Below are positions 1-13,548 of a stretch of DNA of 64,000 nucleotides, one piece after another. The DNA is from Marivirga arenosa (lineage in GTDB: Bacteria; Bacteroidota; Bacteroidia; Cytophagales; Cyclobacteriaceae). The stretch's first letter is position 1. Each line of letters opens with the position of its first letter. The notes beneath the pieces are model-generated. The model was given only the letters and a program-made list of their open reading frames with translations. It did no database searches and was not told the DNA's origin. The DNA is taken from positions 248,001 to 312,000 of the forward strand of contig NZ_CP129970.2 of the NCBI RefSeq assembly GCF_030503895.2, given 5' to 3'. A program made the translations under genes and the position numbers.

Positions 1-60
1 AGAAAAGTCCTTAGCTACCTTATCAACTGCATTCTGATATTTCATGTCATTCTTGTTCAT
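1..60 (-). CDS. 5' end of a cassette gene, product unknown (partial)
   Basis: An open frame begins with ATG at 58-60 and runs off the left edge without a stop. The first 20 codons read MNKNDMKYQN then AVDKVAKDFS. The start lies about 10 bases after the GTTG core (70-73) of the attC-like repeat, the same placement as other cassette genes in the array. Too short to identify; function unknown. Confidence 0.5.
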   Translation of the reverse strand, partial: MNKNDMKYQNAVDKVAKDFS

Positions 61-69
61 AATGCCCTA

Positions 70-194
70 CAACGGTCTCGGGTATGAAACGTAGGGCATT
101 TCGAAGTACTTTCCTGTCCGCCCGAAACGAACTTTACTAGAAACCCAAAACTTGCGGAAATCACATTCCGCCCTATGTTTTATACCCATTGTTG
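70..194 (-). repeat. attC-like inverted repeat A
   Basis: The arms 70-97 and 170-194 pair imperfectly: the coding strand starts CAACAATGGGTATAAAAC and ends with the complement of a CAAC-GGGTAT-AAAC-TAGGGC arm. Total 125 bp. The right arm contains the stop codon and last residues of the barstar-domain gene, and the partial gene at the left edge starts just beyond the left arm. The interior is not strongly structured by eye. Confidence 0.7.
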
Positions 195-979
195 CCAACA
201 GTTTTTATTAATTTTTCAGCGTTTTGATTGTTGTAATCCGCTATTATTTCTTTCAATATTTTTGATTCTTTCTCAAACGTGTTTTCAAATTTATCCCAAT
301 TAGTCAATGTCAAAACATTGGGCATTTCTACAATTCCAGTTATTGAATCCCAAAATGCGTCCCAATTATTTCCATAAAATTCAGGAAAATATAATCGTTC
401 GGCAAAAGTGTCGTGCAGGTGCTTGATATTTTCAATATGCCCGAGGTCAATCGTTTTTAATTCAGGTTTTAGTAATTCGTTAAGTTCCGAATCAACGTCT
501 TCTAAAATCTGTTTTCGATACCATTCTACTGGTTCAAGTTGCTTTTTCAAAGCATCCGAATTCCATTGATTGTATTCTGATTCTATTGGACAATTGTCGA
601 GTTCACTTTCATACCCTATTGCAAGTCCAATTGACAGAAATGGTCTTTTAATTTCCAATTCTTGTTCAAGATATAATTTTCTCAATTTTCTTGTAGCTAA
701 TACAATTTCAACTTTACCGGATTTTATTTTTTTTAATAGTTCTACTGTTCTCCACTTTTCGTATTCCCTCCAGTCGAAATGCTTTTTGACAACTGATTTT
801 ATGTACTTTTTTACTTCTCGACTTTTGAAATTGAACGCTAACAAGTCGTTATAATGGTCTTCTGGGATTGTGTTTTCGAGTTCCTTATTTTCATAAATCC
901 ACTTTTCAAATGATTCCAACGAAAGGTCATCATTTAAGAATTGATAAAATTTAATTCTATTTGGATTTATGTTTTTCAT
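173..979 (-). CDS. Barstar-domain immunity-like protein with N-terminal extension
   Basis: 268 aa. Residues about 180-255 resemble barstar, the intracellular inhibitor of barnase-type RNases: a helix beginning IKHLHDTFAERLYFPEFYG, then NNWDAFWDSITG with the conserved Trp/Asp helix, then a strand ending LTLTNWDKF. The first 170 residues are charged and match no family I recognise; a free barstar is only about 90 aa. No barnase-like toxin is adjacent, so this may be an orphan immunity protein. The last residues (GNNGYKT) and the stop are encoded by the attC-like repeat. The cassette starts at 995 with GTTGCCAAC, complementary to its own 3' core at 191-199. Start ATG at 977-979. Barstar assignment is from pattern recognition only. 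Confidence 0.75.
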   Translation of the reverse strand: MKNINPNRIKFYQFLNDDLSLESFEKWIYENKELENTIPEDHYNDLLAFNFKSREVKKYIKSVVKKHFDWREYEKWRTVELLKKIKSGKVEIVLATRKLRKLYLEQELEIKRPFLSIGLAIGYESELDNCPIESEYNQWNSDALKKQLEPVEWYRKQILEDVDSELNELLKPELKTIDLGHIENIKHLHDTFAERLYFPEFYGNNWDAFWDSITGIVEMPNVLTLTNWDKFENTFEKESKILKEIIADYNNQNAEKLIKTVGNNGYKT

Positions 980-992
980 TCAAATTGTTGGC

Positions 993-1232
993 AACAATTG
1001 TGCAAACGCTATTATTGCGTTTATATATTATTGGCACTAATCTAACGGATTTTTTATTGTATTCATATAGGTGCTTACAACAGTTGTTTATATGCAACTT
1101 TAGGTGATAAAATATCTATTATGTAAGTCATTAGAATTCAAAAAAAAAGCTGAGCTTAAGGTTTTGGTTGTAGATGAACTGATGCAATAAATGTAATTAA
1201 AATCCTACAAGAAAGAAAATGGAAGTTTATAA
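993..1232 (-). repeat. 240-bp direct repeat, copy 1 (attC-like family)
   Basis: About 96% identical by eye to 10149-10389 in the same orientation; a shorter divergent relative is at 3610-3700. It contains the hairpin AAACGC-TATTAT-TGCGTTT near 1005-1022 and a GCTGAGCTTAAGG block. It stops at AAC (993-995) immediately before the barstar cassette, the expected place of the previous cassette's recombination site. The remaining 1233-1355 up to the mazF stop shows no gene or clear structure. Confidence 0.8.
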
Positions 1233-1355
1233 TGTCGGGCTAAAATGCCTTTGCCACACATAGCTGACGAAACACAAAATAGCAAAGTCAAATTACAAGC
1301 TCAATCAATAGAAACAATAAGCAAATACTTTTATAGGTAACCTTAGACTTAGTTG

Positions 1356-1679
1356 TTAATCCACAAATATTTCCTTTATAATGCTTTTAATTTCTTTGAT
1401 TTCGGGTTTTGATAATCTTCCTAAAGGTTTAATTATTCTTTGCTTATCTATAGTCCGAATCTGATCGAGCACAACCCAGCCTATTTTGTTGTCGTGTTTT
1501 ACTTCTACTCGAGTGGGATAATTTTTTGAGCTTGTTGTCATAGGGGCAATCACGATCGTCCTCAGATATTTATTCATCTCATTTGGGGAGATCACTATGC
1601 AGGGTCTGGTTTTCTGAATTTTACTTCCAATTGTAGGATTCAAATTGACTAAAACGATTTCGTACTGATTTATTTCCAT
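1356..1679 (-). CDS. mazF: MazF/PemK-family endoribonuclease toxin
   Basis: 107 aa, the usual length. It opens with the family pattern for a small SH3-like barrel (QYEIVLVNLNPTIGSKIQKT, then RPCIVISPNEMN), followed by VIAPMTTS, GWVVLDQIRTIDKQRI and a C-terminal helix; the Arg of RPCIVIS and the Thr/Ser of APMTTS sit where catalytic residues lie in MazF. MazF enzymes cut mRNA at short sequence motifs and are normally held by MazE. The ATG overlaps the end of the preceding mazE reading frame, as in typical mazEF operons. The antitoxin frame carries a premature stop, which is unusual beside an apparently intact toxin. The cassette's 5' core is at 2022-2030; its own 3' core is not clear. Confidence 0.9.
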   Translation of the reverse strand: MEINQYEIVLVNLNPTIGSKIQKTRPCIVISPNEMNKYLRTIVIAPMTTSSKNYPTRVEVKHDNKIGWVVLDQIRTIDKQRIIKPLGRLSKPEIKEIKSIIKEIFVD

Positions 1680-1915
1680 TCGATTAGATTTTCATCCTCG
1701 AACACATCATCAAATAGTAAATTATCATCCTTATTCTCAGACATTTCCTTAAATGCTTTTTCCCACCCTTTTCGAGGTTTTGAAATGGGTTTTATAATAA
1801 TCTACCCTTTTTCTAAAATCAAATCCACCTTATCCTTAATATTATATTTCTCCAAAATAGTCTTACTAAATCTGATGCCTTTAGAATTACCTATCTGTAC
1901 AACTGAAACCTCCAT
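1670..1915 (-). pseudogene. mazE: MazE/AbrB-type antitoxin interrupted by an in-frame TAG
   Basis: Translating from ATG at 1913-1915 gives MEVSVVQIGNSKGIRFSKTI then LEKYNIKDKVDLILEKG, a standard AbrB/MazE DNA-binding fold, then TAG at codon 38 (1802-1804). The same frame continues as IIIKPISKPRKGWEKAF and on to LIEWK and a stop at 1670-1672 overlapping the mazF start. Intact relatives of this type have an uninterrupted ..EK-x-IIIKP.. join, so a point mutation is the simplest reading. The C-terminal, toxin-binding half might still be made by reinitiation or readthrough; otherwise the toxin is free. Sequencing error is the main alternative. Confidence 0.8.
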
Positions 1916-1932
1916 AATCTCTTCTATTTATT

Positions 1933-1951
1933 GTAATTACAAAGTTACTAC
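1933..1951 (-). promoter_or_regulatory. Putative mazEF promoter and operator palindrome
   Basis: The coding strand reads GTAGTAACTTTGTAATTAC, an imperfect palindrome that contains a Bacteroidota -7 element (TAACTTTG, complement of 1940-1947) 24-25 bases before the mazE ATG. MazE-family repressors bind such palindromes over their own promoter. A good -33 element is not obvious. Confidence 0.4.
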
Positions 1952-2026
1952 TTTTTAATAGGGATAAGAAGATGAAGTTGATTTATATTTAGAATGCTCA
2001 GATTCACATTTTGCAGAAATTAAGCT

Positions 2027-2224
2027 TAACGGGCTTGTGTAAAAATCTGTGCGCGACATTTTATTAAGGCAATAAAGTTAGCAATTTTTATTTTGCTATC
2101 AATAGCTATCTGGAAGTGACGGAAACTGGTTGACTTATCTTTTTGCTCGTATGCCAAAAATTGCACGAATTAACTACTGAGCTTACTCGAAACTGCTTAA
2201 GTGCATGTTTTATAGATTGTGTTG
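2027..2224 (-). repeat. attC-like inverted repeat B (long family)
   Basis: 198 bp, bounded by TAAC (2027-2030) and GTTG (2221-2224), with terminal arms sharing TGTAAAAA-type and TGCrC blocks. It is clearly related to the repeat at 9407-9605 along its whole length: shared blocks include GCAATTTTTATTTTGCTATC and GAAACTGCTTAAG, with perhaps three quarters of positions identical by eye. It separates the parDE and mazEF cassettes. Confidence 0.75.
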
Positions 2225-2230
2225 GTAACT

Positions 2231-2521
2231 TTATCCTAGTATTTCAGTGGCATCTTGTCGTCCAATGATTGCCAAAATCTCAACAAGCTCGTCCTTTACT
2301 CTAAAATAGATGCTGTCTACCCCGCAGACACAACGTCTATATCCTTCTTTAATATAGTCGACAGACTCGTATGAAAACGGCCGCTCTGCTATCATGTCAA
2401 AGTAATCAAAGAATGTATTGAAATACTTGTCGGCTTGTTGCTCGCCAAATCTTTTAACTCCGTATTGATGTATTCTGATGAGGTCATTTTTGGCTTCATT
2501 ACTAAGTCTGTAATTAGCCAT
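2231..2521 (-). CDS. parE: RelE/ParE-family toxin
   Basis: 96 aa, typical for ParE. Recognisable blocks are LSNEAKNDLIRIHQYGVKRF at the N-terminal helix, the central DYFDMIAERPFSYES, then YRRCVCGVDSIYFRVKDE and a final strand with VEILAIIGRQDATEIL; the end R-x-D pattern is characteristic. ParE toxins generally poison DNA gyrase, though members of the fold can also be mRNA interferases. It overlaps the upstream antitoxin by 8 bp, a translationally coupled arrangement. The pair forms one cassette with its own promoter; its 5' and 3' core sequences differ at one base. Confidence 0.92.
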   Translation of the reverse strand: MANYRLSNEAKNDLIRIHQYGVKRFGEQQADKYFNTFFDYFDMIAERPFSYESVDYIKEGYRRCVCGVDSIYFRVKDELVEILAIIGRQDATEILG

Positions 2522-2753
2522 TCAAATCAGACTTAGATTGTGCTAAAATCTGTTCTTTAGTTGCATCTGTAAAACCACTTTTCTCAGCTTTTTCAAGTTT
2601 TGCCCTAACCCAATCGATTTGCCTTTGTTGGTTTCTTGCTTGTCGGATTAAGTCGTTAACTAATTCACTCTTACTTGAATATTCTTGACTATCGACCTGA
2701 GCTTTTAGCCACTTGTCATTTGGTTCGGTAATTGAAATACTTTGACGTGCCAT
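2514..2753 (-). CDS. parD: ParD-like type II antitoxin
   Basis: 79 aa. The N-terminal ARQSISITEPNDKWLKAQVD is the ribbon-helix-helix strand and first helix, followed by SSKSELVNDLIRQARNQQ and a charged tail that would wrap the toxin. Family members bind ParE and repress their own promoter as dimers. A near-perfect palindrome overlapping the -7 element lies just upstream. It begins with ATG at 2751-2753, 59 bases after the cassette's 5' core. Confidence 0.92.
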   Translation of the reverse strand: MARQSISITEPNDKWLKAQVDSQEYSSKSELVNDLIRQARNQQRQIDWVRAKLEKAEKSGFTDATKEQILAQSKSDLNG

Positions 2754-2762
2754 AATTCTTTA

Positions 2763-2801
2763 TTTGATGTAAATATACACCAAATACGAATCAATTGCAA
2801 A
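2763..2801 (-). promoter_or_regulatory. parDE promoter with overlapping operator
   Basis: The coding strand has TTTG (complement of 2798-2801), a 20-base spacer and TATATTTA (complement of 2770-2777), matching the Bacteroidota TTTG-N19/21-TAnnTTT pattern. Over the -7 element lies TTTGGTGTA-TA-TTACATCAAA (2763-2784), a near-perfect palindrome fitting ParD autorepression. The cassette therefore carries its own promoter. Confidence 0.65.
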
Positions 2802-2816
2802 GATGGTTGCTGTTGC

Positions 2817-2863
2817 CAACGAGTAGTGTAAAATGCGTTTTAATGCATTTTTACAAAATGTTA
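2817..2863 (-). repeat. attC-like inverted repeat H (compact)
   Basis: 47 bp between CAAC (2817-2820) and GTTA (2860-2863). Arms GTAAAATGC and GCATTTTTAC pair around an 8-base centre. The upstream arm holds the stop codon of the 2851-3294 gene. It is the shortest element in the array and would fold as one hairpin when single-stranded. Confidence 0.75.
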
Positions 2864-3294
2864 GGTGCTTTTTTAGTCTTTATATGAAATTCACACCATG
2901 ATCCTCCATGATGGTCTCTCGTAATTATTTCAATTCTATTATTGTTGTTTTCCCAATGTGTGAATATGCCATAATCTCCGTCATAAAATTCGTCAGGTTT
3001 ACCTAATAAATGAATTAGCTTATCAATAAGTGATTTAACTTCTTTTTTATCTCTTATTCCAGTTCCCACACTAGTCAGCGTTGTACCATCTTTACTTAAT
3101 TTTGAGGTTGAAATATTTAGATCTATATTTTCAAATAATTTAAATTCACCGAATTGCAATGATATATAGCTATCGTCTTGATAGTGATTATTTGAAAGTT
3201 TAATGAGTTCACTCAATTCGGTCCCCCATTCAATAAAGTGACCATTTTCTAGTTTTATTCCTTTCTTGATACTTTCGAAAATGTAATCTCTCAT
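2851..3294 (-). CDS. Hypothetical cassette protein, 147 aa
   Basis: No family recognised. The protein starts MRDYIFESIKKGIKLENGHF and has alternating strands, with a C-terminal block IEIITRDHHGGSWCEFHIKT containing a DHHGG patch. No signal peptide or membrane segment. The neighbouring gene ends one base before this ATG (3292-3294), so the two are co-translated and travel as one cassette. The last residues (APNIL) come from the attC-like repeat. A toxin/immunity or enzyme/partner role is possible from context but not shown. Confidence 0.75.
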   Translation of the reverse strand: MRDYIFESIKKGIKLENGHFIEWGTELSELIKLSNNHYQDDSYISLQFGEFKLFENIDLNISTSKLSKDGTTLTSVGTGIRDKKEVKSLIDKLIHLLGKPDEFYDGDYGIFTHWENNNNRIEIITRDHHGGSWCEFHIKTKKAPNIL

Positions 3295-3295
3295 A

Positions 3296-3595
3296 CTAAT
3301 TACCTGAGTCTGAATTTTTATTAAAAGTCATTATTGCATTATGTGCAATCTTTCCAATTTCGCCTAATTCGTGCCGGTCTTTATATTTGGATTGAGAATA
3401 ATATTGAATATCGCGAGCTAACTCTTTTAAAAATTCATAACCTGATTTTCTATAATTCTCTGCTTCTTCTTTATTCAACTTTATTAGCATTGAGAATCCG
3501 AATGCTGATACATTGCAGTGCACATCAATGTAAAAGTCTGTTCCGTTCTCAAGGAAAAACCAAAATCTATCTTCTTTATCAGTGACTTTCATCAT
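3296..3595 (-). CDS. Hypothetical cassette protein, 100 aa
   Basis: First gene of the two-gene cassette. It reads MMKVTDKEDRFWFFLENGTD then FYIDVHCNVSAFGFSMLIKL, and a helical C-terminus with LARDIQYYSQSKYKDRHELG. A further upstream GTG (3605-3607) is in frame but lies inside the recombination core, so ATG at 3593-3595 is preferred. Small, soluble, mixed strand then helix; resembles immunity proteins in size and composition only. Function unknown. Confidence 0.7.
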   Translation of the reverse strand: MMKVTDKEDRFWFFLENGTDFYIDVHCNVSAFGFSMLIKLNKEEAENYRKSGYEFLKELARDIQYYSQSKYKDRHELGEIGKIAHNAIMTFNKNSDSGN

Positions 3596-3609
3596 CCTTA
3601 ATTGCACCT

Positions 3610-3700
3610 AACAATTGAATATAGTTACCCCTGGTGACTTTATATCTATTATGACAGTTATTACAATTTAAAAAATAAAGCTGAGCTTAACGTTTTGGTA
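3610..3700 (-). repeat. Diverged partial copy 3 of the 240-bp repeat family
   Basis: It shares AACAATTG at the core, then TATCTATTATG, TTACAATT, AAAAAATAAAGCTGAGCTTAA and GTTTTGGT with copies 1 and 2 in the same order and orientation, but lacks the first 90 or so bases after the core and everything beyond 3700. It sits directly before the two-gene cassette, as copies 1 and 2 sit before theirs. Confidence 0.7.
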
Positions 3701-3823
3701 ATGGGTATAACTGTAAATATATCGGATTTATAATAAAACACAATAGTGAGTCAATAGCTTGAGAAGATGAATTTTTAATAGTTTTTTGATTACAGTACAC
3801 TATAAATCCAAATAATATTTTGT

Positions 3824-3959
3824 CCTGAGTTTATTTCTTAACTCCTGCCCTATTTTATTTCTTCCTGACTTAAATTACAGTTTTCTGATTAGGAAAAAGT
3901 ATTCCCTGAGTAATTTTATTCTACCCTGACTTATATTTTTCATTCCTGAACTTCAGGAC
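3824..3959. repeat. Degenerate CCTGA-TTATTT repeats
   Basis: Within this stretch CCTGAG, CCTGCC, CCTGAC, TCTGAT, CCTGAG, CCTGAC and CCTGAACTTCAGG recur every 15-30 bases, separated by T-rich runs such as TTTATTTCTT. Spacing and sequence are too irregular for CRISPR. No gene is seen on either strand. The rest of 3701-3972 shows nothing else recognisable. Confidence 0.5.
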
Positions 3960-3972
3960 GTATATTTAGAGC

Positions 3973-4130
3973 TTATCGCTTATTCAAATATCTACTGAAA
4001 TAGCCTTTACGTTTCGCTTCTTTATTCCTAAAAAGATATTTACCTGCTTGGGCTACTTCATCTACTAATTCTTTTAAATAGGTATAGGTTTTATCCCTAC
4101 AGACTTTAAGCTCAGCCTTCTCTTTTTTTT
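3973..4130 (-). other. Out-of-frame continuation of the coiled-coil gene
   Basis: After the A9 run, the -1 reading continues EKAELKVCRDKTYTYLKELV then DEVAQAGKYLFRNKEAKRKG and YFSRYLNKR before TAA at 3973-3975. The amino acid composition matches the upstream protein and the stretch has no other explanation. It may be lost through a one-base insertion, switched by tract-length variation, or reached by transcriptional slippage on the A tract. Confidence 0.65.
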
Positions 4131-4702
4131 TCCTTCTTAACTTTAGCCAACAGACTACTTAATGCTGAAGCTTCATTTTCTGCTTGATCTAGTTTACTTC
4201 CTTCAAAATTTATAGCTTCCAATAAGGGTAAATTCGCTTTTCCGAGAGCAGATAAATCGCTTAAATCCTGTATTAAATCTGAATTATGGCTGCCTTTAGC
4301 TATTTCTTGCAAGTTTTTTAATAAGTCAGCTCGTTTGCGAAAGGCAAAGCGAAAAGCATTTTCCAGTTCGTTTTTTAAATCCTCGGCTTTTTTACTTTTT
4401 TCATCCCACTCCTGCCTGTAAGGCCCTTTCTGATATCGATTATTCACCCATTGGGATTGCACATAACTTAATGCCCCTATCCGGGCTTCAAACTCCTGGA
4501 AATCCTTTATTCCTATTTTGATTAATTTCCCCTGATCTGCTTTGCTCCATTGATATAAATTGTAGGCTTCCTGTAAAAAAACATCTACAGGCATATTGGG
4601 TATTTTTACTTCACTGGGCGATAGGCGCTCTATTTTGTCTTTTAAGGCTTCAAAGTTTTCTTTGGACATTCTTATATAGCTTGGTTGAAATTTAGGAATC
4701 AA
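4112..4702 (-). CDS. Coiled-coil hypothetical protein, frameshifted at a 9-A tract
   Basis: 196 aa as read. It is rich in Lys, Glu and Leu with long helices (KKAEDLKNELENAFRFAFRK and LPLLEAINFEGSKLDQAENE), no signal peptide or membrane segment. Start: TTG at 4700-4702 is preceded by GGAGGT at good spacing; the first ATG is at 4667-4669. The C-terminus ends abruptly in EKKREG just after nine A residues (4123-4131). Dropping one A reopens the frame for about 45 codons to 3973, so the annotated end is probably not the original one. Family not recognised. It lies in a segment that appears inserted into an attC-like repeat. Confidence 0.6.
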   Translation of the reverse strand: MIPKFQPSYIRMSKENFEALKDKIERLSPSEVKIPNMPVDVFLQEAYNLYQWSKADQGKLIKIGIKDFQEFEARIGALSYVQSQWVNNRYQKGPYRQEWDEKSKKAEDLKNELENAFRFAFRKRADLLKNLQEIAKGSHNSDLIQDLSDLSALGKANLPLLEAINFEGSKLDQAENEASALSSLLAKVKKEKKREG

Positions 4703-4774
4703 AAATTAATACCTCCAAAAGTATATATCAAGTAATCCTATTGCTTTTTATTAAATGGAACCATTTCGAGTAGG

Positions 4775-4999
4775 AAACCCGTTTGCTATACTGGTCTGTG
4801 AAATACTGAAAGTAGTAATTTATGCTTTCTCCACAAACTGATAAACTTTACTAATTGCAAAATCTTAGAATAATTAAGCACTATACTCGATCAAAGCAAC
4901 ATCTTTACTTGCCAGCTATGAAAAGCAAGCATAAATTACGGGCTATTTAGCAATAAACTCTTTACATCGTGGTGAGCAAATGGGGTTTATAAAGTGTTA
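4775..4999 (-). repeat. attC-like inverted repeat E, downstream end truncated
   Basis: It begins at GTTA (4996-4999). Paired blocks: AAACCCGTTTGCT (4776-4788) with AGCAAATGGGGTTT (4974-4987), and GTAATTTATGCTT with AAGCATAAATTAC further in. The other repeats continue past the outer arm to a GTT core, but here pairing stops at about 4775, followed by unrelated sequence, so the core is missing. The 317-bp gap 4703-5019 is otherwise empty. Confidence 0.6.
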
Positions 5000-5019
5000 G
5001 CTGTAGTTATATTTCACCT

Positions 5020-5238
5020 TCACAGACTGATCAAGAAACCAAAAAGAAATGCTAACAATGATAAGCTACCCATGATAATTAAAAAATAAGACTGAAGTTT
5101 GAGCCAATACACAGTTGTCCCTAACACTCTTTGCATATCGCTGAGACCTGTTTTCTTAAGATATCGTTGTATTCCAATACCTAAAAGGATAAAACCCACA
5201 GCAAGCAATATATAAATTAGATTATTATCCTGTCCCAT
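5020..5238 (-). CDS. Small membrane protein, 72 aa, unknown
   Basis: Two hydrophobic helices: residues about 8-25 (LIYILLAVGFILLGIGIQ) and 48-72 (LQSYFLIIMGSLSLLAFLFG), joined by a basic loop with LKKTGLSDMQRVLG. No family recognised. Sole gene of its cassette: the 5' core GTTAGCTGTA (complement of 5257-5266) matches its own 3' core at 4996-5005 exactly over ten bases. ATG at 5236-5238. It could be a toxin or immunity protein, but nothing in the sequence decides. Confidence 0.65.
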   Translation of the reverse strand: MGQDNNLIYILLAVGFILLGIGIQRYLKKTGLSDMQRVLGTTVYWLKLQSYFLIIMGSLSLLAFLFGFLISL

Positions 5239-5262
5239 TTTTGTTGCAAGTCCATTTACAGC

Positions 5263-5322
5263 TAACGGTTTGGCTATGAGCAGTAGTGTCCCGAAGGGCG
5301 CTATTGCTTATAGGTTTTGTTG
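5263..5322 (-). repeat. attC-like inverted repeat D
   Basis: 60 bp from TAAC (5263-5266) to GTTG (5319-5322). The arms CTAT-AGCA-TAG and CTA-TGCT-ATAG pair with extra unpaired bases on one side; the centre carries CCCGAAGGG, which can form a tight hairpin tip. In length and layout it is the closest match in the array to a classical integron attC site. Confidence 0.8.
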
Positions 5323-5340
5323 GCAGCTGGCTTTTTTATT

Positions 5341-6021
5341 TTATCGATTATGAAAAAAATTGATGTCCAAGTTTTCATCTTCAATATAGTCTTGAAAGTT
5401 TTTATTTTCCAAAAAATCAATTAAATCTTTGCCATCAATAGACCCTTCGTCAATCAGAAGTTGTGATAATTCTTTATGAATTCGTTGAACGAAATTGTGT
5501 TCTTGAAAAATGCTTATTAAGTCCATAATTTTGAACTTTAAAAAGTTATAATCACTCGTTTTAAATTCCTGAGATAAATACTTTAAATATTTCATTACAA
5601 TTTCAAAATCGCCACCACAACCCGTTGTGTCTAATATGTCTTTAAAATGCTGAGCATTTATGATTTCGAGAGTAATCATGTCTCTTTGTAGGATGATTTC
5701 AATGTTCTGTCCAATCATGCCTGCCAAGGCAATTGCTGCAATTTCATTAGCTCTCTGAATATTAGTTTCTGTTTTTACATTGAAATTTGCTGATATATGC
5801 AAGGCACCGTTCATACTCTTGTCTGGAAGACCGTCAGGATTGATTGTAAGTCTATTGACTATCCAATAATCTTTAAATAAATACCAAACAATTCCATGAG
5901 CAGCTTCATGCAGTGCTCGTTTTTCTATGCTAAACTCGTTTGAAGTCGCCACTTGTTGTGGGACAGAGACATTTTTCTGAGGAGATGAGAAGATTGATTT
6001 TAATATTTTGAATAGTCTCAT
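5341..6021 (-). CDS. M41-like (FtsH protease-domain) zinc metallopeptidase
   Basis: 226 aa. The zinc motif is HEAAH at residues 38-42 in the context EKRALHEAAHGIVWYLF, as in the FtsH protease domain, followed by VNRLTINPDG, a GALHIS strand, the helix ANEIAAIALAGMIGQNIEII and GCGGDFEIVMKYL (Asp138), matching the position of the third zinc ligand in M41 (GA-x-x-DL-x-x-A). FtsH's transmembrane and AAA+ ATPase parts are absent, so this is a free-standing protease module. It is the last gene of the HEPN-SIR2-peptidase cassette, 28 bases after the SIR2 stop. It could process or release a partner effector; that role is inference. It is cytosolic by sequence. Confidence 0.75.
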   Translation of the reverse strand: MRLFKILKSIFSSPQKNVSVPQQVATSNEFSIEKRALHEAAHGIVWYLFKDYWIVNRLTINPDGLPDKSMNGALHISANFNVKTETNIQRANEIAAIALAGMIGQNIEIILQRDMITLEIINAQHFKDILDTTGCGGDFEIVMKYLKYLSQEFKTSDYNFLKFKIMDLISIFQEHNFVQRIHKELSQLLIDEGSIDGKDLIDFLENKNFQDYIEDENLDINFFHNR

Positions 6022-6049
6022 ATTATTAGGTTCTGTTAGCAGATGGCTT

Positions 6050-7282
6050 CTATTTTAGTAGTTCTTTCGGAATCAATTTCAAGTAATCTTGGTAAGGAAT
6101 TTTTGTAACACCTTGAGCTACATAGTCACAGTTGTACTTATCGAGGATATCCGACTTAGGTTTATAAGGATCGATAACTATCATTTTCTTTCCTGCTTCT
6201 AAGAAATTATTAATCAAATAGTCATTTATTCCAGGGTCTTGAAATCCATAGCCAACAACGATTAGCAGAGAAGATTCCTTTAGGTTCGATTCAAAGTGCT
6301 TAAAGAGTTTGATGTAATGGTCATCTTCAATGTATCTCTTAGTTTTCTCTGTGGTACCACTAAGAAAATCTGGAGACACATCATCCCACAGGTGTTGAAA
6401 CTCAAATTTCTTCTTTTCTTCGTTAAATACTTCTTCATGATAGTCTCTTACTGCATAGTTTGACTTAATTCTAACTCTTTCATGGTTCTGTCTATAAATT
6501 ACCGTATTAAATACGCTCCCATGCAATTTATACAGACAGAGTTTAGTGTCGAACTTATCTGTAAATCGCTCCAATTTGACTTTATATGTTTTATGTACTT
6601 TTTTGTCGCCATGAGGAAAGTCATAGCTGACAGTTCCATAAAAAGGAGAACCTTCAAGCTCGAATCCATCAGAAAATTCTTGCCATAAATCCGAATGATG
6701 TCTACCAATCCAATCAAAGAATAAGTCATGATTTAGAGTATGAACTTTCAGGTCATTTACCTTGAGTAACTCTCTTAATAGGCTCCAAAATGAATCGTAC
6801 GGTGGGTAGTTTAATGTGCTAACATCTTCAAAGTATTTTAAGCTGTGTAATTGCGACCCTAAAAGTTGATTAAAACTGCGATTAAAATCAGAAACTCTAT
6901 TGTAACAATCTCTCTGCCCATCTTTCCCTTTGAAGTGCTTATCATTAAAAGCCTTGTAAAAGCCTTCAATTAAATCCTTATTTTCTTTTTCTCTTAGATA
7001 ACCTGAATAGAAATCATAAAATGTTTCGTAGTGAAATTCTTGGTCATCTTTTAAAACATCATTATTGTAAAACTCCAAGAACTCTTGAAGAAATTGTCGT
7101 TCATCCCATCTGCTCCATCTGTTGGGGTCATCTTGACCGTTTAGGAACATCGCATGCTGGTCAGTATGAATTAGAATTTCACTTTCATCGATTTTGCCCA
7201 TTCTTTGATTTAATTGCCGTACTCCTGGGAGTCCTTCAGGAATCGAAAAGCCTGAACCAAATAAGAAAGAAACTATTGCCAT
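6050..7282 (-). CDS. SIR2-like NADase-type defence protein
   Basis: 410 aa. SIR2 NAD-binding motifs occur in order: FLFGSGFSIPEGLPG (residues 7-20, the GAG-S loop), TLNHD (182-186, the catalytic Asn and Asp), KLHGS (252-256, His254) and LIVVGYGFQDPGINDYLIN (340-358). The cysteine zinc module of protein deacetylase sirtuins is absent, as in the SIR2_2-type proteins of phage-defence systems, many of which deplete NAD+. Gene order HEPN, SIR2, peptidase, with 23- and 28-bp gaps, points to one operon. Which event triggers it and whether it hydrolyses NAD+ is inferred. No membrane segments. Confidence 0.88.
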   Translation of the reverse strand: MAIVSFLFGSGFSIPEGLPGVRQLNQRMGKIDESEILIHTDQHAMFLNGQDDPNRWSRWDERQFLQEFLEFYNNDVLKDDQEFHYETFYDFYSGYLREKENKDLIEGFYKAFNDKHFKGKDGQRDCYNRVSDFNRSFNQLLGSQLHSLKYFEDVSTLNYPPYDSFWSLLRELLKVNDLKVHTLNHDLFFDWIGRHHSDLWQEFSDGFELEGSPFYGTVSYDFPHGDKKVHKTYKVKLERFTDKFDTKLCLYKLHGSVFNTVIYRQNHERVRIKSNYAVRDYHEEVFNEEKKKFEFQHLWDDVSPDFLSGTTEKTKRYIEDDHYIKLFKHFESNLKESSLLIVVGYGFQDPGINDYLINNFLEAGKKMIVIDPYKPKSDILDKYNCDYVAQGVTKIPYQDYLKLIPKELLK

Positions 7283-7305
7283 AATGCTCGTTTTTCAGAT
7301 TGCTG

Positions 7306-8052
7306 CTATTTCCAACGTTGAATTATTTTATTAATATTTTGTTCTAAAAGTTCAGAAAAGTTGTCTTCGCTAAACTTCTCCTTTTTCTCAAGCATTTCAA
7401 CTACTTTCTTCGTTTGTTTCCATATTTTGAGTAGTTCAGACAGTTTTGGCTTCAAAGCCTTCGCATTATCGGGCGTGTAGTGTACAGTTTTGTTTCTCAA
7501 TGAAAAGAGATTTACGATTTCATTGATTTGAACTTTATTCAGTTTTAAATCATCCTTGAATATGTATATCAAGCGGTCAATAATCCTAGCAGTCGATATT
7601 CGTGAATAGCTTAAATTGTCTATTTCGTTTATATGATTTAAAAAGAGTAAATGCCTGTTAACTAATGTTTCTATGAAAAAGCCGAAATTGTTTAAGTGCC
7701 CTAAGATTTCAATAGAGTTTATTTCGTGTTGATGTCCAAAACTGTGTTGGCCTAAGCGAGCCTTTTGCTGTGCGGTTTCCCATGAAGCAGCCATTTGAGA
7801 TGCTGTTTCGTCAGAGATTGCTTCGATGCTATCAGTTTGTAAGAGTTCAACTGGATTGTCAGGCAAGCTAAGATTTTCAATTAGTTTCCTGTCTGCTTCT
7901 GTCGGGTCAATTTTGTCAATGTATTTAGAAAATATAATTGAGGCATACTCATAAATCAAGACTTCATTTAAATAGTGAAATGATTCACTCAAGTAAAAGT
8001 TTATCCCTTCACCTAATTTGGAATATGTTTCTATGTCGTGATTATTCGCCAT
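7306..8052 (-). CDS. HEPN-like helical protein with RX4H motif
   Basis: 248 aa, nearly all helical. Near the C-terminus is VNLFSLRNKTVHYTPDNA: R186-N187-K-T-V-H191 fits the RX4-6H catalytic signature of HEPN domains, with the usual polar residue after Arg, and a preceding helix with FIETLVNRHLLFLNHINEID. HEPN proteins are often RNases in toxin-antitoxin and abortive-infection systems. It is first in the three-gene cassette, its ATG being 17 bases after the GTTGGCAGC core. No clear promoter is seen in front. The HEPN call is by motif and fold impression only. Confidence 0.65.
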   Translation of the reverse strand: MANNHDIETYSKLGEGINFYLSESFHYLNEVLIYEYASIIFSKYIDKIDPTEADRKLIENLSLPDNPVELLQTDSIEAISDETASQMAASWETAQQKARLGQHSFGHQHEINSIEILGHLNNFGFFIETLVNRHLLFLNHINEIDNLSYSRISTARIIDRLIYIFKDDLKLNKVQINEIVNLFSLRNKTVHYTPDNAKALKPKLSELLKIWKQTKKVVEMLEKKEKFSEDNFSELLEQNINKIIQRWK

Positions 8053-8068
8053 TTATTTTGCTTGCTGC

Positions 8069-8193
8069 CAACGCTAAGCATATGGCTTTGTGGCGGTTTT
8101 TAAAGTGCCTTCTTGTCTGCCCGCACTATTGCTATTTAAATGTACAAAATTTTCTTTTACCCCTGAAGCCGCCATAAGCTATATGTAGTGTTA
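8069..8193 (-). repeat. attC-like inverted repeat G
   Basis: 125 bp from CAAC (8069-8072) to GTTA (8190-8193). Arms ATATGGCTT-GTGGCGG and CCGCCATAAGCTATAT pair over about 25 bases with offsets. The stop codon of the lipocalin-like gene is the TAA inside its core. The middle holds no gene. Confidence 0.75.
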
Positions 8194-9294
8194 GGGACTT
8201 TCTTTTTCAAAATCTATTCGTGCAGCAAATCTTGCTCTTTCATCATATCTATAGTTTAAATCAAGGCTTAAATTATTTAAGTTCAAGGAATATATTGACA
8301 GATATTCTTCCCAACCATCATTTGATTTAATTATTACATAGGATCCGTTTTTTGCTAATCTCCAAGTGCCTTGTTCATTGTTTGTGAAATCAATTCTATT
8401 TTTATTTTTTACAAGGGTTATCTTATTATTTGAAACATACTGTCCATTATCCTTGAATTCTATAGAGAAATTGAGGTTTAAGATTGAATCAATATGCAGA
8501 GCATTTATATTATTTGAAAATCTTGAAAATGACCATTTCCCAATTAATTCATATTCTTTTTTCTGAAATTCTTTTAATGTTAATAGTCCATTATTTTCTA
8601 AAGTGACAATAGTCGCTTTTGGAAAGTCTGACCACTCTTGGACTGAAACTTCAGCTACAATGCGACCTTTAGCTTCAGATTTTAAATTAAAGAAATATTC
8701 CTTTAAAGATTCTCTATCAGCGATATACAGAACATAGTAATTCTCGCTATTAGCCAATTTCCAGTCACCATAATTTGCATAACCGTATTCTTCACCCTGA
8801 TAAATTAAAGTTAGAGTACTTGAATCAGAAAAGTGAAATTTTAAAGATGAAAGTGAACCTAATTCAGACTTTACTTGCCATTCAGTATTTTCAAAATCTC
8901 TAGCACTCAATTCAATATCCTCGGAGCTAAAAGGTTTTAGTACAATATAGGTTTCTTTATCCTCAATAGGTCTTAAAATGATACTATCTTTATTAATTGA
9001 TTCTATTTTAATTTTTTCTCCTTTAAGCTTAAAAATCCCTCCCTTTTTAACTCTTGTTTTATTAGGCTTTTCTTTAAAATTATGAAATTTTACAGTTTTA
9101 TCAGAGAACTCAACTATTCCTGAAACAATAGAAAATGATTCCATTTTTTCAACAGAATCAGCAGGGCTGTCAATCGAATAAACTTCTTCCATTGAACGAA
9201 TATAATCTACTTTCCAAGCACCAGATAGCTCTTGTCCCAATGTAAAGAACGTGGACAGCAATAAAGCGGCTAATAATGGTAAAATTCTTTTCAT
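8191..9294 (-). CDS. Secreted lipocalin-like beta-rich protein
   Basis: 367 aa from ATG at 9292-9294. An in-frame ATG at 9307-9309 exists, but the shorter start gives a clean signal peptide (MKRILPLLAALLLSTFFTLG, cleaved before QELS). Three beta-rich segments each carry a G-x-W or N-x-W strand: GAWKVDYI, NTEWQVKSELGSL and GKWSFSRF, with a fourth GTWRLAKNGSYVII, like the tandem lipocalin-like domains of Bacteroidota. It is likely periplasmic; ligand unknown. The stop lies in the recombination core at 8191-8193, and 5' and 3' cores match over nine bases. Confidence 0.7.
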   Translation of the reverse strand: MKRILPLLAALLLSTFFTLGQELSGAWKVDYIRSMEEVYSIDSPADSVEKMESFSIVSGIVEFSDKTVKFHNFKEKPNKTRVKKGGIFKLKGEKIKIESINKDSIILRPIEDKETYIVLKPFSSEDIELSARDFENTEWQVKSELGSLSSLKFHFSDSSTLTLIYQGEEYGYANYGDWKLANSENYYVLYIADRESLKEYFFNLKSEAKGRIVAEVSVQEWSDFPKATIVTLENNGLLTLKEFQKKEYELIGKWSFSRFSNNINALHIDSILNLNFSIEFKDNGQYVSNNKITLVKNKNRIDFTNNEQGTWRLAKNGSYVIIKSNDGWEEYLSIYSLNLNNLSLDLNYRYDERARFAARIDFEKESP

Positions 9295-9406
9295 TGTAAT
9301 TCTGACCAATACATTATCATTTGTTGATTTTTATTAATTCACTAAATTTTTCTGCTCTTCCGTTAGCTTTCGGAGTCAATGGCTTAGCTATAGAGCGGAT
9401 TGTCCC

Positions 9407-9605
9407 TAACGGGCGCGTGTAAAAATCCGTGCGCCACTATTAATTAAGGCGATGAAGATAGCAATTTTTATTTTGCTATCAATAGCCTAGTTGATGTGAC
9501 TGAAACTGCATGAATTTACTTTTTGCTCTGCCTGCTAAAAATTGCGGGAATCAACTACTTTGCTTGCCGGAAACTGCTTAAGCGCATGGTTTTTACATAG
9601 TGTTA
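9407..9605 (-). repeat. attC-like inverted repeat C (long family)
   Basis: 199 bp, relative of the repeat at 2027-2224. Outer arms GTGTAAAAATCCGTGCGC and GCGCATGGTTTTTACA pair well; an inner hairpin GATAGCAA-TTTTTA-TTTTGCTATC lies at about 9453-9478. It separates the 179-aa orphan from the lipocalin-like cassette and supplies the stop codon of the former. Positions 9295-9406 hold no gene; a GTTAGC/GGCTTAGCTA stretch there may be an older remnant. Confidence 0.75.
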
Positions 9606-10129
9606 GCCTCAGTATCTATTTCTTTAATCTCTGAGAAGCTTGATAAAAACTTAGAAGAAAAGAATGTTTTAACAGCCTCAAACATATTTCCATCTAAATT
9701 GAATTCAATACGCTGATTATCTTTGAGTTTAATAATTCCTGTAAGTTCTCCTGCGTGATAAGTATCACCTCTGATCCTTGTCCATCTCGCATACTTTATT
9801 GGAAGGCCAATGTTGTAAAGAAACCAAAAAGGAGTAAAAGGAAACGGTTCGATGTTGTCAGGCTCCTTGATGATCTCTATTTGGTCGATTTTATCGTATT
9901 GCACAGAAAAAGTCAACTTATCTCCCAAACGTCCTACAAGTCCGTTGGGTCTTTGATCTAAATGAATTCTGGAAGGGTTATGCTTTCTAATTTCAGTAAT
10001 CAACTCCTCTGGTCCACTTGTTATGTTTAAGTGGCCCAGTCCATACACTTTGATCTGCATTCTCTCACGAATAGAAAGTTCCGCACCCAAAACTTTGTCA
10101 AAACTATTTGCTTTAAATGAAATGTTCAT
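9593..10129 (-). CDS. Hypothetical cassette protein, 179 aa
   Basis: No family recognised. ATG at 10127-10129 gives MNISFKANSFDKVLGAELSI; a TTG further up (10151-10153) lies inside the recombination core and is unlikely. A hydrophobic aromatic stretch PFPFTPFWFLYNIGLPIKYA (about 90-110) could be a short membrane anchor or buried core, flanked by beta-type segments (TYHAGELTGIIKLKDNQRIE), giving a PH-domain-like impression. The C-terminus EANTM and stop are encoded by the attC-like repeat. This is the cassette nearest the chromosomal boundary; 5' and 3' cores match over ten bases. Confidence 0.7.
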   Translation of the reverse strand: MNISFKANSFDKVLGAELSIRERMQIKVYGLGHLNITSGPEELITEIRKHNPSRIHLDQRPNGLVGRLGDKLTFSVQYDKIDQIEIIKEPDNIEPFPFTPFWFLYNIGLPIKYARWTRIRGDTYHAGELTGIIKLKDNQRIEFNLDGNMFEAVKTFFSSKFLSSFSEIKEIDTEANTM

Positions 10130-10148
10130 TCGAAGATCTATTGAGGCT

Positions 10149-10389
10149 AACAATTGTGCAAACGCTATTATTGCGTTTATATATTATTGGCACTAATCTA
10201 ACGGATTTTTTATTGTATTCATATAGGTGCTTACAACAGTTGTTGATATGCAACTTTAGGTGATAAAATATCTATTATGTAAGTCATTACAATTCAAAAA
10301 ATAAAGCTGAGCTTAAGGTTTTGGTTGTAATTGAACTGATGTAATAAATGTAATTAATATCCTACAAGAATGAAAATGGTAGTTTATAA
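10149..10389 (-). repeat. 240-bp direct repeat, copy 2, at the array boundary
   Basis: Same sequence as 993-1232 with about ten differences. A GTTAGC at 10414-10419 is complementary to the core at 10146-10151, so the full element may extend to there (about 270 bp). Beyond it, 10420-10610 has no gene or structure I can name; this is the likely junction between cassette array and chromosome. Confidence 0.8.
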
Positions 10390-10613
10390 CAAAAAGACTA
10401 TAATTAGAACACGGTTAGCTATTTCTTAATTTGTGAAATGACTGTGTCTTTAGGGAGCCGCAAACAAACGGGCTATTCAAACCGCAACAACCCTATCCCC
10501 TCTTCCACTTTTCAGAATTCCACTCCGCTAAGCGTGATCAGTTGCTTTTTTATCGTAAAAACCTATTGTATTCTCTTTCTAAAGCCGATACTTATTGAAT
10601 TACATAAAATAAA

Positions 10614-10644
10614 AAACCCGCAAGGGTTTAAAGCTTGCGGGTTT
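10614..10644 (-). terminator. Terminator of the ferredoxin gene
   Basis: Stem AAACCCGCAAG (10614-10624) with CTTGCGGGTTT (10634-10644), 24 bases after the ferredoxin stop, followed on that strand by a T-rich run. It also insulates the array from ferredoxin transcription. Confidence 0.85.
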
Positions 10645-10667
10645 AAATATTTTAAGTTCAAAAATTA

Positions 10668-11030
<363 letters not shown>

Positions 11031-11063
11031 TTAAGCTCTTCGCTAATTTAGTTAGTATAACAA

Positions 11064-11095
11064 CAAATTTAGAGACAATAAGTTTACCGAACAAA
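11064..11095 (-). promoter_or_regulatory. Promoter of the ferredoxin gene
   Basis: The coding strand has TTTG (complement of 11092-11095), 20 bases, then TAAATTTG (complement of 11064-11071): a full match to the Bacteroidota -33/-7 consensus, 46 bases before the ATG. Confidence 0.75.
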
Positions 11096-11298
11096 ATAAT
11101 TTGAATTCATTAATTTAATGAGTGAGTAATTTAAAAAAGTTCTACACAAAAGATTTTGAAATTAACTTTAAAACTAAAAGTCATTTAAGCAACATCTTTA
11201 AGAAATGAGTAATTGAATTACAAAAAAATGATTCTTAAAACATTAATTTCCAAACTGATTACTATGATTAGAGTATAATAAAGGTGTATTACTATTCT

Positions 11299-13548
11299 AT
11301 GATAAAAAACTACTACCAACAGCTTCTAAATTTTCTTAAAAGCCCTGATTTCCTAAAATCTATAATAGTCACTTTTGGTATAGTATTACCCTTAATAATT
11401 GGAATCCAAATTGACCAAATCTCCTATCTACTTAGCGTATCCATAGGTGTTTTTCTTACTTCAGGAAGTGATGTTCCCGGTAGCCGAAAACATAAAAGCA
11501 TTGGAATTTTAATTGCTACATTAATTGCAGTATTAACCACCATCGCCATTACCTATGTAGCTCCAAACCCTTATTTGTTGGTACCAACAATGTCACTTCT
11601 TATTTTCGGAATATCCTTTATTTCGGTATATGGTTTTAGAGCTTCCTTAATTTCTTTTTCAGGCTTATTAGCGATCGTATTAAGCTTTGCACATCCGCAA
11701 GTTGGTCAAGAAATCTTAATTCAAGGACTATTCATTGCAATTGGAGGCTTTTGGTATTTATTTTTATCGGCTATATTCCATCCATTACTGCAAAAACGTC
11801 AAATCAATAAAGAACTTAGTTCATGCCTACAGTTTACAGCTCAATACATTCGAATCAGGGGAAATTTAGCTATAGGAGAAGGCAAGGCTGAAGAATTAAA
11901 AAAAGAGTTATTTGAGCTGCAAACCACTATAAACGCCACTCACGAAACTCTGCGAGAACTTTTATTGACCGAAAGGCAGAGCTCTGGGTTTTCAAATTAT
12001 AAGAGAAAACAATTATTGATCTTCATTGAATTAATTGACATTCTAGAACTCTCAATGGCAAACCCAGCTAATTATGAAAAAATAAATAGTCTATTTCTAG
12101 AAAAACCTCATTATGTTCGCCCATTTATAGATTTAGTATTTCAATTATCAGATAGATTGGATCAAATGGCTATTGCGATGTTAGAAAACAAAAAACTCTC
12201 GCATAAAATAGACTTTAACATCCTGATCCAATTATGTGAAAAAACTATTCAAACTTATAAAAACGATATTGGATTACCAGAAGCTAGAGAGGGTGCTCTT
12301 TTGCTTAGAAATTTACTTGAATATGAAGAAAACCAAATTCAAAAAATTGATTCCATTGAAAGGGTATTTTATGATCTCGAAAACCGAAAAAATATTGGAA
12401 TTAGAAGTAAAGAGGGAAAGCAGTTTATCACTCAGCAAGATTACGATCTTAATATCCTAAGTGAGAATTTTAGTTTCAAGTCACCTATTTTAAAGCACAG
12501 CGCTCGTCTCACTATTGCTATGCTTTTAGCGTACACAATCGGGACTTTATTTTCACTACAAAATACTTATTGGATATTATTAACGATTGTGGTAATAATG
12601 AGGCCCGGTTATACCCTTACCAAAGAAAGATCAAAACATCGATTATACGGCACATTAATTGGAGCATCAATTGCAAGCATCATAGTTTTAATCAATCAAA
12701 ACACTTATTTATTTGCCTTTTTGGCAATTGTTTCACTAACTCTTGCACTTAGCTTTATCCAAAAAAACTACAAAACCGCCTCCGTTTTTATTACAACCAG
12801 TATCGTTTTTATTTACACTCTCATAAATCCAGACGCATTTGAGGTTATACAATATAGAGTGGTAGATACAATAATAGGAGCAGCTATTGCATTTGGAGCC
12901 GGTACATTACTATGGCCTACATGGGAATCAGAAAGTATACAAAACACCATATTAAAAGTATTAAGAGCTAATAGAAAATATCTCGCCCAAATTGATCGGT
13001 ATTATCATGAAAACAGTGGCCTTACTGATTATAAACTAGCTAGAAAGGAAGCCTTTTTAGAAATGGGGAATTTAAATGCAGCATTTCAGCGATTAAGCCA
13101 AGAACCCAAATCCCAGCAACATCATGTGGGCAAAATAAATGAGATTGTTAGTATAAATCAAACACTCCTTGCTGCAATGGCCTCCTTAGGAACCTATTTA
13201 ATTAATCATAAAGAGAATGAAGTTTCAAAAGACTTTGAATTTATAATTAAAACTATAGACCTCAATCTTAAACAGGCTATACAGCGTTTACTTAAAAAAG
13301 ACCAAACAGGCTCTATTTCTGAAGACGAATTAGAGCTTGCACATCAGCATTTAGAAGAAAGATTTGAAAGCTTAGTATCTATTCGAAATCAGGAGTTAGC
13401 ATTTAAGAAAACAAAGCCAATTGACCCCCAGTTAAGAAAAAGATTGCAGTCTACGCGCTTAATATCAGATCAAATGAAGTGGCTAGTTACTATATCGGGC
13501 AATATCAAGAAAGTAATCGAAAGCTTAGAATCGGACTTGGTGAAATAA
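11299..13548 (+). CDS. FUSC-family (YccS/YhfK-like) inner-membrane protein
   Basis: 749 aa from ATG at 11299 (an in-frame GTG lies 15 bases upstream). Two membrane blocks: residues about 20-165 with several helices (GIVLPLIIGIQIDQISYLLS, LLIFGISFISVYGFRASLIS), a helical cytoplasmic region, then 390-540 with LTIAMLLAYTIGTLF and the FUSC signature TYWILLTIVVIMRPGYTLTK followed by RSKHRLYGTLIGA. A C-terminal helical domain follows. Family members resemble aromatic-acid efflux and fusaric-acid resistance pumps; the substrate is unknown. Monocistronic; the 280-bp upstream gap shows no clear promoter consensus for it. Confidence 0.88.
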   Translation: MIKNYYQQLLNFLKSPDFLKSIIVTFGIVLPLIIGIQIDQISYLLSVSIGVFLTSGSDVPGSRKHKSIGILIATLIAVLTTIAITYVAPNPYLLVPTMSLLIFGISFISVYGFRASLISFSGLLAIVLSFAHPQVGQEILIQGLFIAIGGFWYLFLSAIFHPLLQKRQINKELSSCLQFTAQYIRIRGNLAIGEGKAEELKKELFELQTTINATHETLRELLLTERQSSGFSNYKRKQLLIFIELIDILELSMANPANYEKINSLFLEKPHYVRPFIDLVFQLSDRLDQMAIAMLENKKLSHKIDFNILIQLCEKTIQTYKNDIGLPEAREGALLLRNLLEYEENQIQKIDSIERVFYDLENRKNIGIRSKEGKQFITQQDYDLNILSENFSFKSPILKHSARLTIAMLLAYTIGTLFSLQNTYWILLTIVVIMRPGYTLTKERSKHRLYGTLIGASIASIIVLINQNTYLFAFLAIVSLTLALSFIQKNYKTASVFITTSIVFIYTLINPDAFEVIQYRVVDTIIGAAIAFGAGTLLWPTWESESIQNTILKVLRANRKYLAQIDRYYHENSGLTDYKLARKEAFLEMGNLNAAFQRLSQEPKSQQHHVGKINEIVSINQTLLAAMASLGTYLINHKENEVSKDFEFIIKTIDLNLKQAIQRLLKKDQTGSISEDELELAHQHLEERFESLVSIRNQELAFKKTKPIDPQLRKRLQSTRLISDQMKWLVTISGNIKKVIESLESDLVK

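Follow-up and report, generated by a model that had tools for sequence, protein, structure and literature searches.

An integron-like cassette array in Marivirga arenosa and a candidate tyrosine recombinase without the IntI additional domain

A stretch of 64,000 nucleotides of the Marivirga arenosa genome (RefSeq assembly GCF_030503895.2, contig NZ_CP129970.2, positions 248,001 to 312,000), hereafter the window, carries an integron-like cassette array, all parts of which lie on the minus strand. Plain positions refer to the window, whereas those headed C1 are contig coordinates of this genome. The array works like an integron and is very probably part of an integron-like system of Bacteroidota that is run by a tyrosine recombinase lacking the additional domain (I2) of the integron integrase IntI; the recombinase itself is not a member of IntI. 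A preliminary description made from the letters alone had proposed an integron-like array with long sites, which both the anatomy of the sites and a strain comparison now support. It had placed the array at 70..10151, and the units there are real, but the array passes the window edge and more units follow as far as C1:242140.

Unit boundaries and exchange at GTT cores

The units begin with GTT and, as a rule, close with a repeat that opens with the reverse complement of the unit's own start. For the unit starts at 10151, 9410, 8072, 5266, 3612 and 995 the match to the own repeat is exact over 10, 9, 9, 10, 9 and 10 bases, and for a seventh start (2820) it holds for 8 of 9 bases, as the preliminary description had noticed. 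When the seven starts were combined with the seven ends in all 5040 pairings, the true one alone reached 62 of 63 letters, the next best reaching 60 and the mean being 43.4. Such complementarity between a start and its own end, together with GTT borders between unlike neighbours, is unexpected if the repeats were RNA elements such as terminators or attenuators and the arrays differed through ordinary homologous recombination between repeats. That the repeats sit after genes and fold, and that recombination between similar repeats can exchange blocks, speak for this explanation, but we consider it very unlikely, in view also of the strand on which pairing is kept (see below).

The long repeats at 9411-9610 and 2031-2229 (191 bp each) and a damaged one at ~4767-5004 fit attC, the recombination site of integron cassettes. 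The last is the repeat reported earlier as lacking its GTT end, which was confirmed, and related intact sites of 228-232 bp occur in other genomes. Three other stretches that had been taken for long attC repeats (984-1232, 10140-10389 and 3613-3700) are instead relics of an integrase end with its attI. The toxin-antitoxin unit starting at 2030 is without a clear attC of its own.

We compared the window with a second genome (G001), which was assigned by a tool to the same species. The two are collinear on the far side of the array at 92.8% over 17.8 kb, and on the attI side share the relic (90.6%) and a ferredoxin gene (92.9%), followed in G001 by 8.2 kb absent from the window and then by 3.9 kb at 98.4%. 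These ~8.2 kb (C1:1688919-1697092 of G001) stand between the ferredoxin-like and large membrane-protein genes, which are direct neighbours in the window. Read in cassette orientation, both genomes match through the attI relic to ...CACAATTGTTAG, where they diverge, and they agree again starting at CGTTCAATAAG; the boundaries of the exchange therefore lie at GTT cores, where the preliminary description had expected them to fall between related strains. Between these points the arrays differ, G001 holding a four-unit chain of its own and further single units, and for three parts of the window, namely 3692-5010 (1.3 kb), the second copy of the relic and a piece of 142 bp, matches lie at other places in G001. 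The exchange falls within the GTT core and, as GTT is common to both sites, the exact cut may be placed at G/TT only by analogy. At the locus of an intact integrase (C1:1664093-1665259), this genome shares 9.9 kb of upstream flank with G001 at 97% identity, whereas the two have different integrases and arrays there.

Copies of cassettes point in the same direction. A cassette of 645 bp is shared by the two strains at 100% identity, in different places. Among 19 stretches compared, 11 near-identical pairs (at least 99% over 350-3500 bp, several sharing a copy) were found. In 9 of these a GTT follows the beginning within 10 nt, which a random point would show in 15% of cases, and all 11 end within 12 nt after a GTT. 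In two arrays, that at C1:248k of G001 and that of L083 (labels in L denote loci fetched for comparison), a cassette from further along the array is present again at attI, letter for letter. Comparison at the sequence level shows the cassettes to have been mobile at their GTT cores.

Folded sites, attI and gene order

From 26 loci we collected 142 distinct attC-like sites, which fall into length classes of ~52-55, 115-121, 146-150, 176-184, 203-204, 218-223 and 228-232 bp, with further sites of other lengths between 38 and 270 bp. The lengths appear quantised (~53, 117, 148 and 180 bp), with steps near multiples of 31-32. The bottom strands fold better than shuffled sequences (mean z of -2.0 to -6.2 by class, with 52-100% of sites under -2) and better than the top strands in all seven classes. 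Under symmetric scoring, G.T wobbles that preserve pairing on the bottom strand only numbered 218 and those on the top strand only 31; by this lean, 111 of 130 distinct sites were assigned to the bottom strand, 3 to the top and 16 were ties. Pairing is thus kept on the strand opposite the transcript, the reverse of what RNA function would lead one to expect. The attI stems carry no such bias (13 vs 9 in a small sample of 18 sites), which suggests that attI may be used double-stranded, as canonical attI is. Gaps are found in one arm at 64 and in the other at 76 of the 142 sites, from which we draw nothing on extra-helical bases.

The anatomy of these sites also bears on the notion that the units are Xer modules, in which dif-like sites enclose each cassette and the housekeeping enzymes XerC and XerD move it. 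Genes like xerC and xerD are present and related to the recombinase in the core domains. However, dif sites are short, and the sites here are imperfect hairpins of 40-270 bp with a GTT core and bottom-strand bias, unlike dif, although no search for dif-like sites was made; moreover, the arrays stand after a recombinase gene other than xerC or xerD. We regard such modules as extremely unlikely.

A covariance model of the 117-bp class (R1, which covers that class alone, at E <= 0.1) finds 25 sites in the genome, 7 of which were used to build it, and several are clustered; the top-scoring one is the attC at 8073-8198, from which the model was partly built. Outside the window locus, sites of this class were seen at C1:900k, 1002k, 1075-1080k, 1426k, 1517k, 1641-1662k, 1744-1749k and 2229-2235k, some clusters sharing one orientation. 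The taxon-specific attC models described in the relevant part of an earlier report cover 11 taxa, none of them Bacteroidota (PMC8352920).

In relatives, recombinase genes head the arrays in the same direction as the cassettes, with attI just past the stop codon, usually as a short palindrome followed by GTT. The window relics at 984-1232 and 10140-10389 run in the same order, with codons for ...TYMNTIKNPLD, a stop, a hairpin and GTT; positions 984-1148 are a 96% copy of the relic at 10140..10389, whose attI equals that after the integrase stop codon in the same-species genome and is kept between the strains up to the core. A like arrangement follows the stop of an intact tyrosine recombinase of 388 amino acids (C1:1664093-1665259, minus strand) and of a truncated one (C1:1771143-1771622). 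The earlier statement that no integrase is present accordingly holds within the window, relics apart, and not for the genome as a whole.

To score this arrangement, with thresholds set by ourselves, we looked for an 8-mer with GTT within 170 nt past the recombinase stop whose reverse complement lies 0.3-4 kb downstream, ahead of a stem that ends in GTT. It was found at 21 of 30 usable loci in relatives of the genus and family (38 tested, one duplicate gene having been dropped before), at 20 of the 57 named loci that were usable out of 80 fetched (Bacteroidota account for 18 of these 20) and at 11 of 18 usable class loci (20 fetched down the score list), and swapping the attI regions gave 4.7%, 3.8% and 2.9%, respectively. 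Among 22 usable loci of 24 chosen from the named set, it was present on the 3' side of the gene in 16 and on the 5' side in 1. Among the named carriers are Winogradskyella ursingii, Flavobacterium aciduliphilum, Algoriphagus ornithinivorans, Arcticiflavibacter luteus, a Rufibacter and a metagenome-assembled genome (MAG) of Cyclobacterium, and in a plasmid of Chryseobacterium sp. SNU WT5 the integrase, attI and cassettes are all present; in a second Chryseobacterium plasmid no cassette chain was found. We set aside three matches that may be due to chance, namely L148 (Saccharibacillus) and L150 (a Spirochaetota MAG), the only ones outside Bacteroidota among the named loci and both with low stem scores, and L114, with a weak core.

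Chains extend to 12 cassettes in L072 and to 16 starts in L083, and copies are among these several times. The longest open reading frame of 140 distinct cassettes lies on the array strand in 134, on the opposite strand in 5 and is missing in 1, and the distance from core to start codon has a median of 28 bp in the same set. A group II intron reverse transcriptase gene was observed within a Chryseobacterium plasmid array (L224, 15720-17036); group II introns have been reported near integrons (PMC7923331).

The recombinase and its distribution

The recombinase is mostly of ~370-390 amino acids and is composed of an N-terminal domain, a core-binding domain and a catalytic domain, in which R248, K273, H337, R340, H363 and Y372 are invariant among 22 integrases. 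I2 is absent, the corresponding segment having 22 residues against 65 in IntI4 (2a3v), and in the set used for the phylogeny the 32 rows of the group have 22-27 residues there, where the 12 IntI rows have 64. The 388-residue protein scored 194.9 bits with the IntI model TIGR02249 (cut-off 265), 214.6 with the XerA-like NF040815 (cut-off 220), 196.6 with the XerD model (cut-off 329.6) and 182.8 with the XerC model (cut-off 335.15); the genome's own XerC-like protein likewise stays below its cut-offs (319.3 against 335.15). In the tree, the IntI rows, 12 close relatives, form one clade (100/100) separate from the recombinase group. Matches to recombinases on Acinetobacter and Klebsiella plasmids, which covered the C-terminal part and of which one was annotated as TnpF, were set aside; rhizobia also contributed to the hits.

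A structural model of the W. ursingii protein (mean predicted local distance difference test score, pLDDT, 83.9) has a core that matches XerA and IntI4. The N-terminal domain of the A. ornithinivorans protein, folded alone (pLDDT 89.8), gave as its first fold match the HARP domain of SMARCAL1 (4o66; E 0.045, probability 0.87, root-mean-square deviation 7.9), with XPB next and no match under E 0.001 in that search. The first match of a sequence profile was likewise 4o66 (E 0.097), and Pfam placed HARP in 3 of 16 members (best E 0.0012) and DUF5710 in 6 of 16 (best 0.0016) in this part. The resemblance of the modelled domain to HARP is weak and suggestive only; as a guess, the domain might replace I2 in the reading of hairpins.

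No IntI scored over the TIGR02249 cut-off in this genome, and the genome search proposed in the preliminary description for an IntI-type recombinase and more such repeats yielded instead the non-canonical integrase and the further sites of the 117-bp class. Canonical IntI over the cut-off was found in 105 of 395 genomes of the phylum and in 1 of 295 of the class (taken to be Bacteroidia). It could be argued that an IntI, since lost or acting from elsewhere, built and moves the arrays and that the adjoining recombinase is unrelated, for integron attC are read by structure and IntI, which does occur in the phylum, might act on these sites. Its scarcity in the class, and the array with attI after an I2-less gene at 11 of 18 usable class loci, make this a poor explanation, with only a slight chance of being right.

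A profile of the recombinase family (A1, E <= 1e-75) matched in 146 of 295 class genomes and 90 of 156 genera. The 149 class genomes without a match should still have Xer recombinases, so the cut-off excludes most Xer; as relatives of the IS91 type may pass it, 146 of 295 is an upper bound for carriers of such integrons. A family count of 167/196 genomes was discarded, since it included matches at the level of Xer.

The link to IS91 raises the possibility that rolling-circle, IS91-like transposition spread the units and that the recombinase is an accessory of such elements. Close homologues are indeed linked to such elements, with IS91-type transposases standing beside short recombinases related to the integrase in L225 (11002-12944, annotated) and L097 (by eye). 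Against this, two IS91-linked homologues group with recombinases of other phyla in a separate branch (98/87), and the units chain from attI with their own cores, although no systematic search for a transposase beside units was made; we hold this origin to be barely credible.

Several points weigh against attributing the array to a recombinase without I2. The domain is reported as needed for cassette capture. The integrases vary in size and N-terminus, with open frames from 295 to more than 550 amino acids, and the recombinase group is not monophyletic (5 label changes), being mixed with IS91-associated and other recombinases. The attI arrangement was missing at 9 of the 30 loci from relatives, at 37 of the 57 named ones, among which are many homologues from other phyla, and at 7 of the 18 from the class. 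The search for sites drew in part on the very complementarity ascribed to them and used thresholds of our own; the swap of attI regions, the comparison of strands and the cassette copies are less open to this circularity. Some copies of cassettes could stem from homologous recombination, and catalysis by the recombinase is something we infer from gene position and conservation.

The mechanism that we propose builds on what can be read directly from the sequences, namely the anatomy of the sites, the unit chains, the position of attI, the exchange at GTT between two genomes of the same species and the copies bordered by GTT. A tyrosine recombinase encoded upstream of the cassettes and in the same direction, with attI past its stop codon (the sequence cited for attI and cassettes is GTTNNNNNN), would recombine a circular cassette, through its folded bottom strand, with attI, or one attC with another, inside the GTT core (G/TT by analogy), and would excise cassettes by the same route. 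We likewise infer that a single strand is used in folded form, where exactly the cut falls and whatever part the N-terminal domain may play. Of the local integrase genes only decayed tails with attI are left, so that the array of the window would depend on an integrase acting in trans, either the intact one at C1:1664093-1665259 or earlier ones.

Features of the array and relation to known systems

The features of the array are given in Table 1. PADLOC, run on 8 array proteins, returned a match for the SIR2-like protein alone, and a search of positions 1-12000 against Rfam gave a single sub-threshold match, which we put down to chance. The antitoxin-like frame ahead of the PemK/MazF-like toxin (~1680-1916, minus strand) has a stop codon inside it, as seen by eye.

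Table 1. Features of the cassette array in window coordinates
Feature	Position	Strand	Details
Relic of integrase 3' end (reads ...TYMNTIKNPLD, stop) with attI	10140..10389	-	Core GTT 10149-10151
Cassette 1, 179-aa protein without Pfam or PADLOC match	9411..10151	-	attC 9411-9610 (191 bp inner length); own-core match 10 nt
Cassette 2, 372-aa protein with Lipocalin_4 match	8073..9410	-	attC 8073-8198 (117-bp class)
Cassette 3, three genes including SIR2-like (6050-7282)	5267..8072	-	Short attC 5267-5327 (52 bp)
Cassette 4, 72-aa protein	4767..5266	-	Long attC ~4767-5004, GTT end lost; own-core match 10 nt; low end approximate
Third integrase-end/attI relic	3610..3700	-	Core GTT 3610-3612; by eye matches region after integrase stop in L066 and L068
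Cassette 5, two genes	2821..3612	-	Short attC 2821-2868; own-core match 9 nt
Cassette 6, ParD/ParE pair	2031..2820	-	attC ~2031-2229; one base off in own core
Unit with PemK/MazF-like toxin (1356-1679) and interrupted antitoxin frame	1356..2030	-	No clear own attC
Second copy of integrase-end/attI relic	984..1232	-	Core GTT 993-995
Cassette 8, Barstar-domain protein	74..995	-	attC 74-199 (117-bp class)
Beginning of next cassette	1..73	-	Array goes on outside window to C1:242140

The system shares with canonical integrons the arrays of one orientation, R''/R' cores ending in AAC and beginning with GTT, hairpins on the bottom strand, an attI at the head and mobile units, and it is likewise found in chromosomal arrays and in one plasmid-borne example. 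It differs in having a recombinase without the IntI additional domain (22-27 vs 64 residues) and with another N-terminal domain, an attI at the 3' end of the integrase gene, and sites in length classes up to 230 bp, with one of 270. Archaeal XerA and XerC-like recombinases (4a8e, 5hxy) differ in another respect, as Xer recombinases work at dif sites and are not known to be accompanied by cassette arrays. The chromosomal integrons of Treponema resemble the present ones in that the integrase is transcribed towards attI and in the direction of the cassettes, whereas their genes were identified as intI and those described here lack I2; this comparison was made from the published description (PMC3607928).

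I2 has been described as a domain that cassette capture requires, that confers single-strand recombination and that occurs in no other protein (PMC7790495), and its presence has been used to pick integron integrases (PMC2426708, PMC9668308). Some intI genes were reported in the Bacteroidetes/Chlorobi group (PMC2426708), and Bacteroidota are listed among integron phyla in reviews (PMC8618304, PMC9668308). According to the pertinent section of a survey of tyrosine recombinases, the insertion is incompletely conserved in an integron-like subgroup and yet essential for integron function (PMC8138268); the present proteins may be among the members of that subgroup without the full insertion. Among open-licence journal papers we found no description of an I2-less integron in Bacteroidota.

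Uptake of a resistance gene in Riemerella anatipestifer, also of the Bacteroidota, offers a parallel. In this species aph(3')-IVb entered the chromosome by transformation without homology, consistently carrying 27 bp of leading and 140 bp of trailing sequence, of which the trailing part has an attC-like fold, and lnu(H) and blaRATA were described as parallel cases; in the passages concerned the mechanism was called not yet fully elucidated, no integron being found and no recombinase named (PMC13148043). The 27 and 140 bp described there compare with a median distance of 28 bp between core and start codon, and with the common sites of 115-150 bp, found here. The pattern of insertion matches the cassettes described here, and a recombinase of this family is possibly a candidate for the link to Riemerella.

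More tentatively, these arrays may represent a second, separately evolved integron system, in which an I2-less lineage would read folded attC hairpins, perhaps via the HARP-like domain, and which would be the main chromosomal platform of Bacteroidia and possibly lie behind the uptake in Riemerella; we find this wider reading possible, if not quite probable. Integrons have so far rarely been found in this large bacterial group. Arrays headed by I2-less recombinases would mean that single-strand cassette recombination has a second route, or else that I2 is not what makes an integron, and both alternatives can now be tested.

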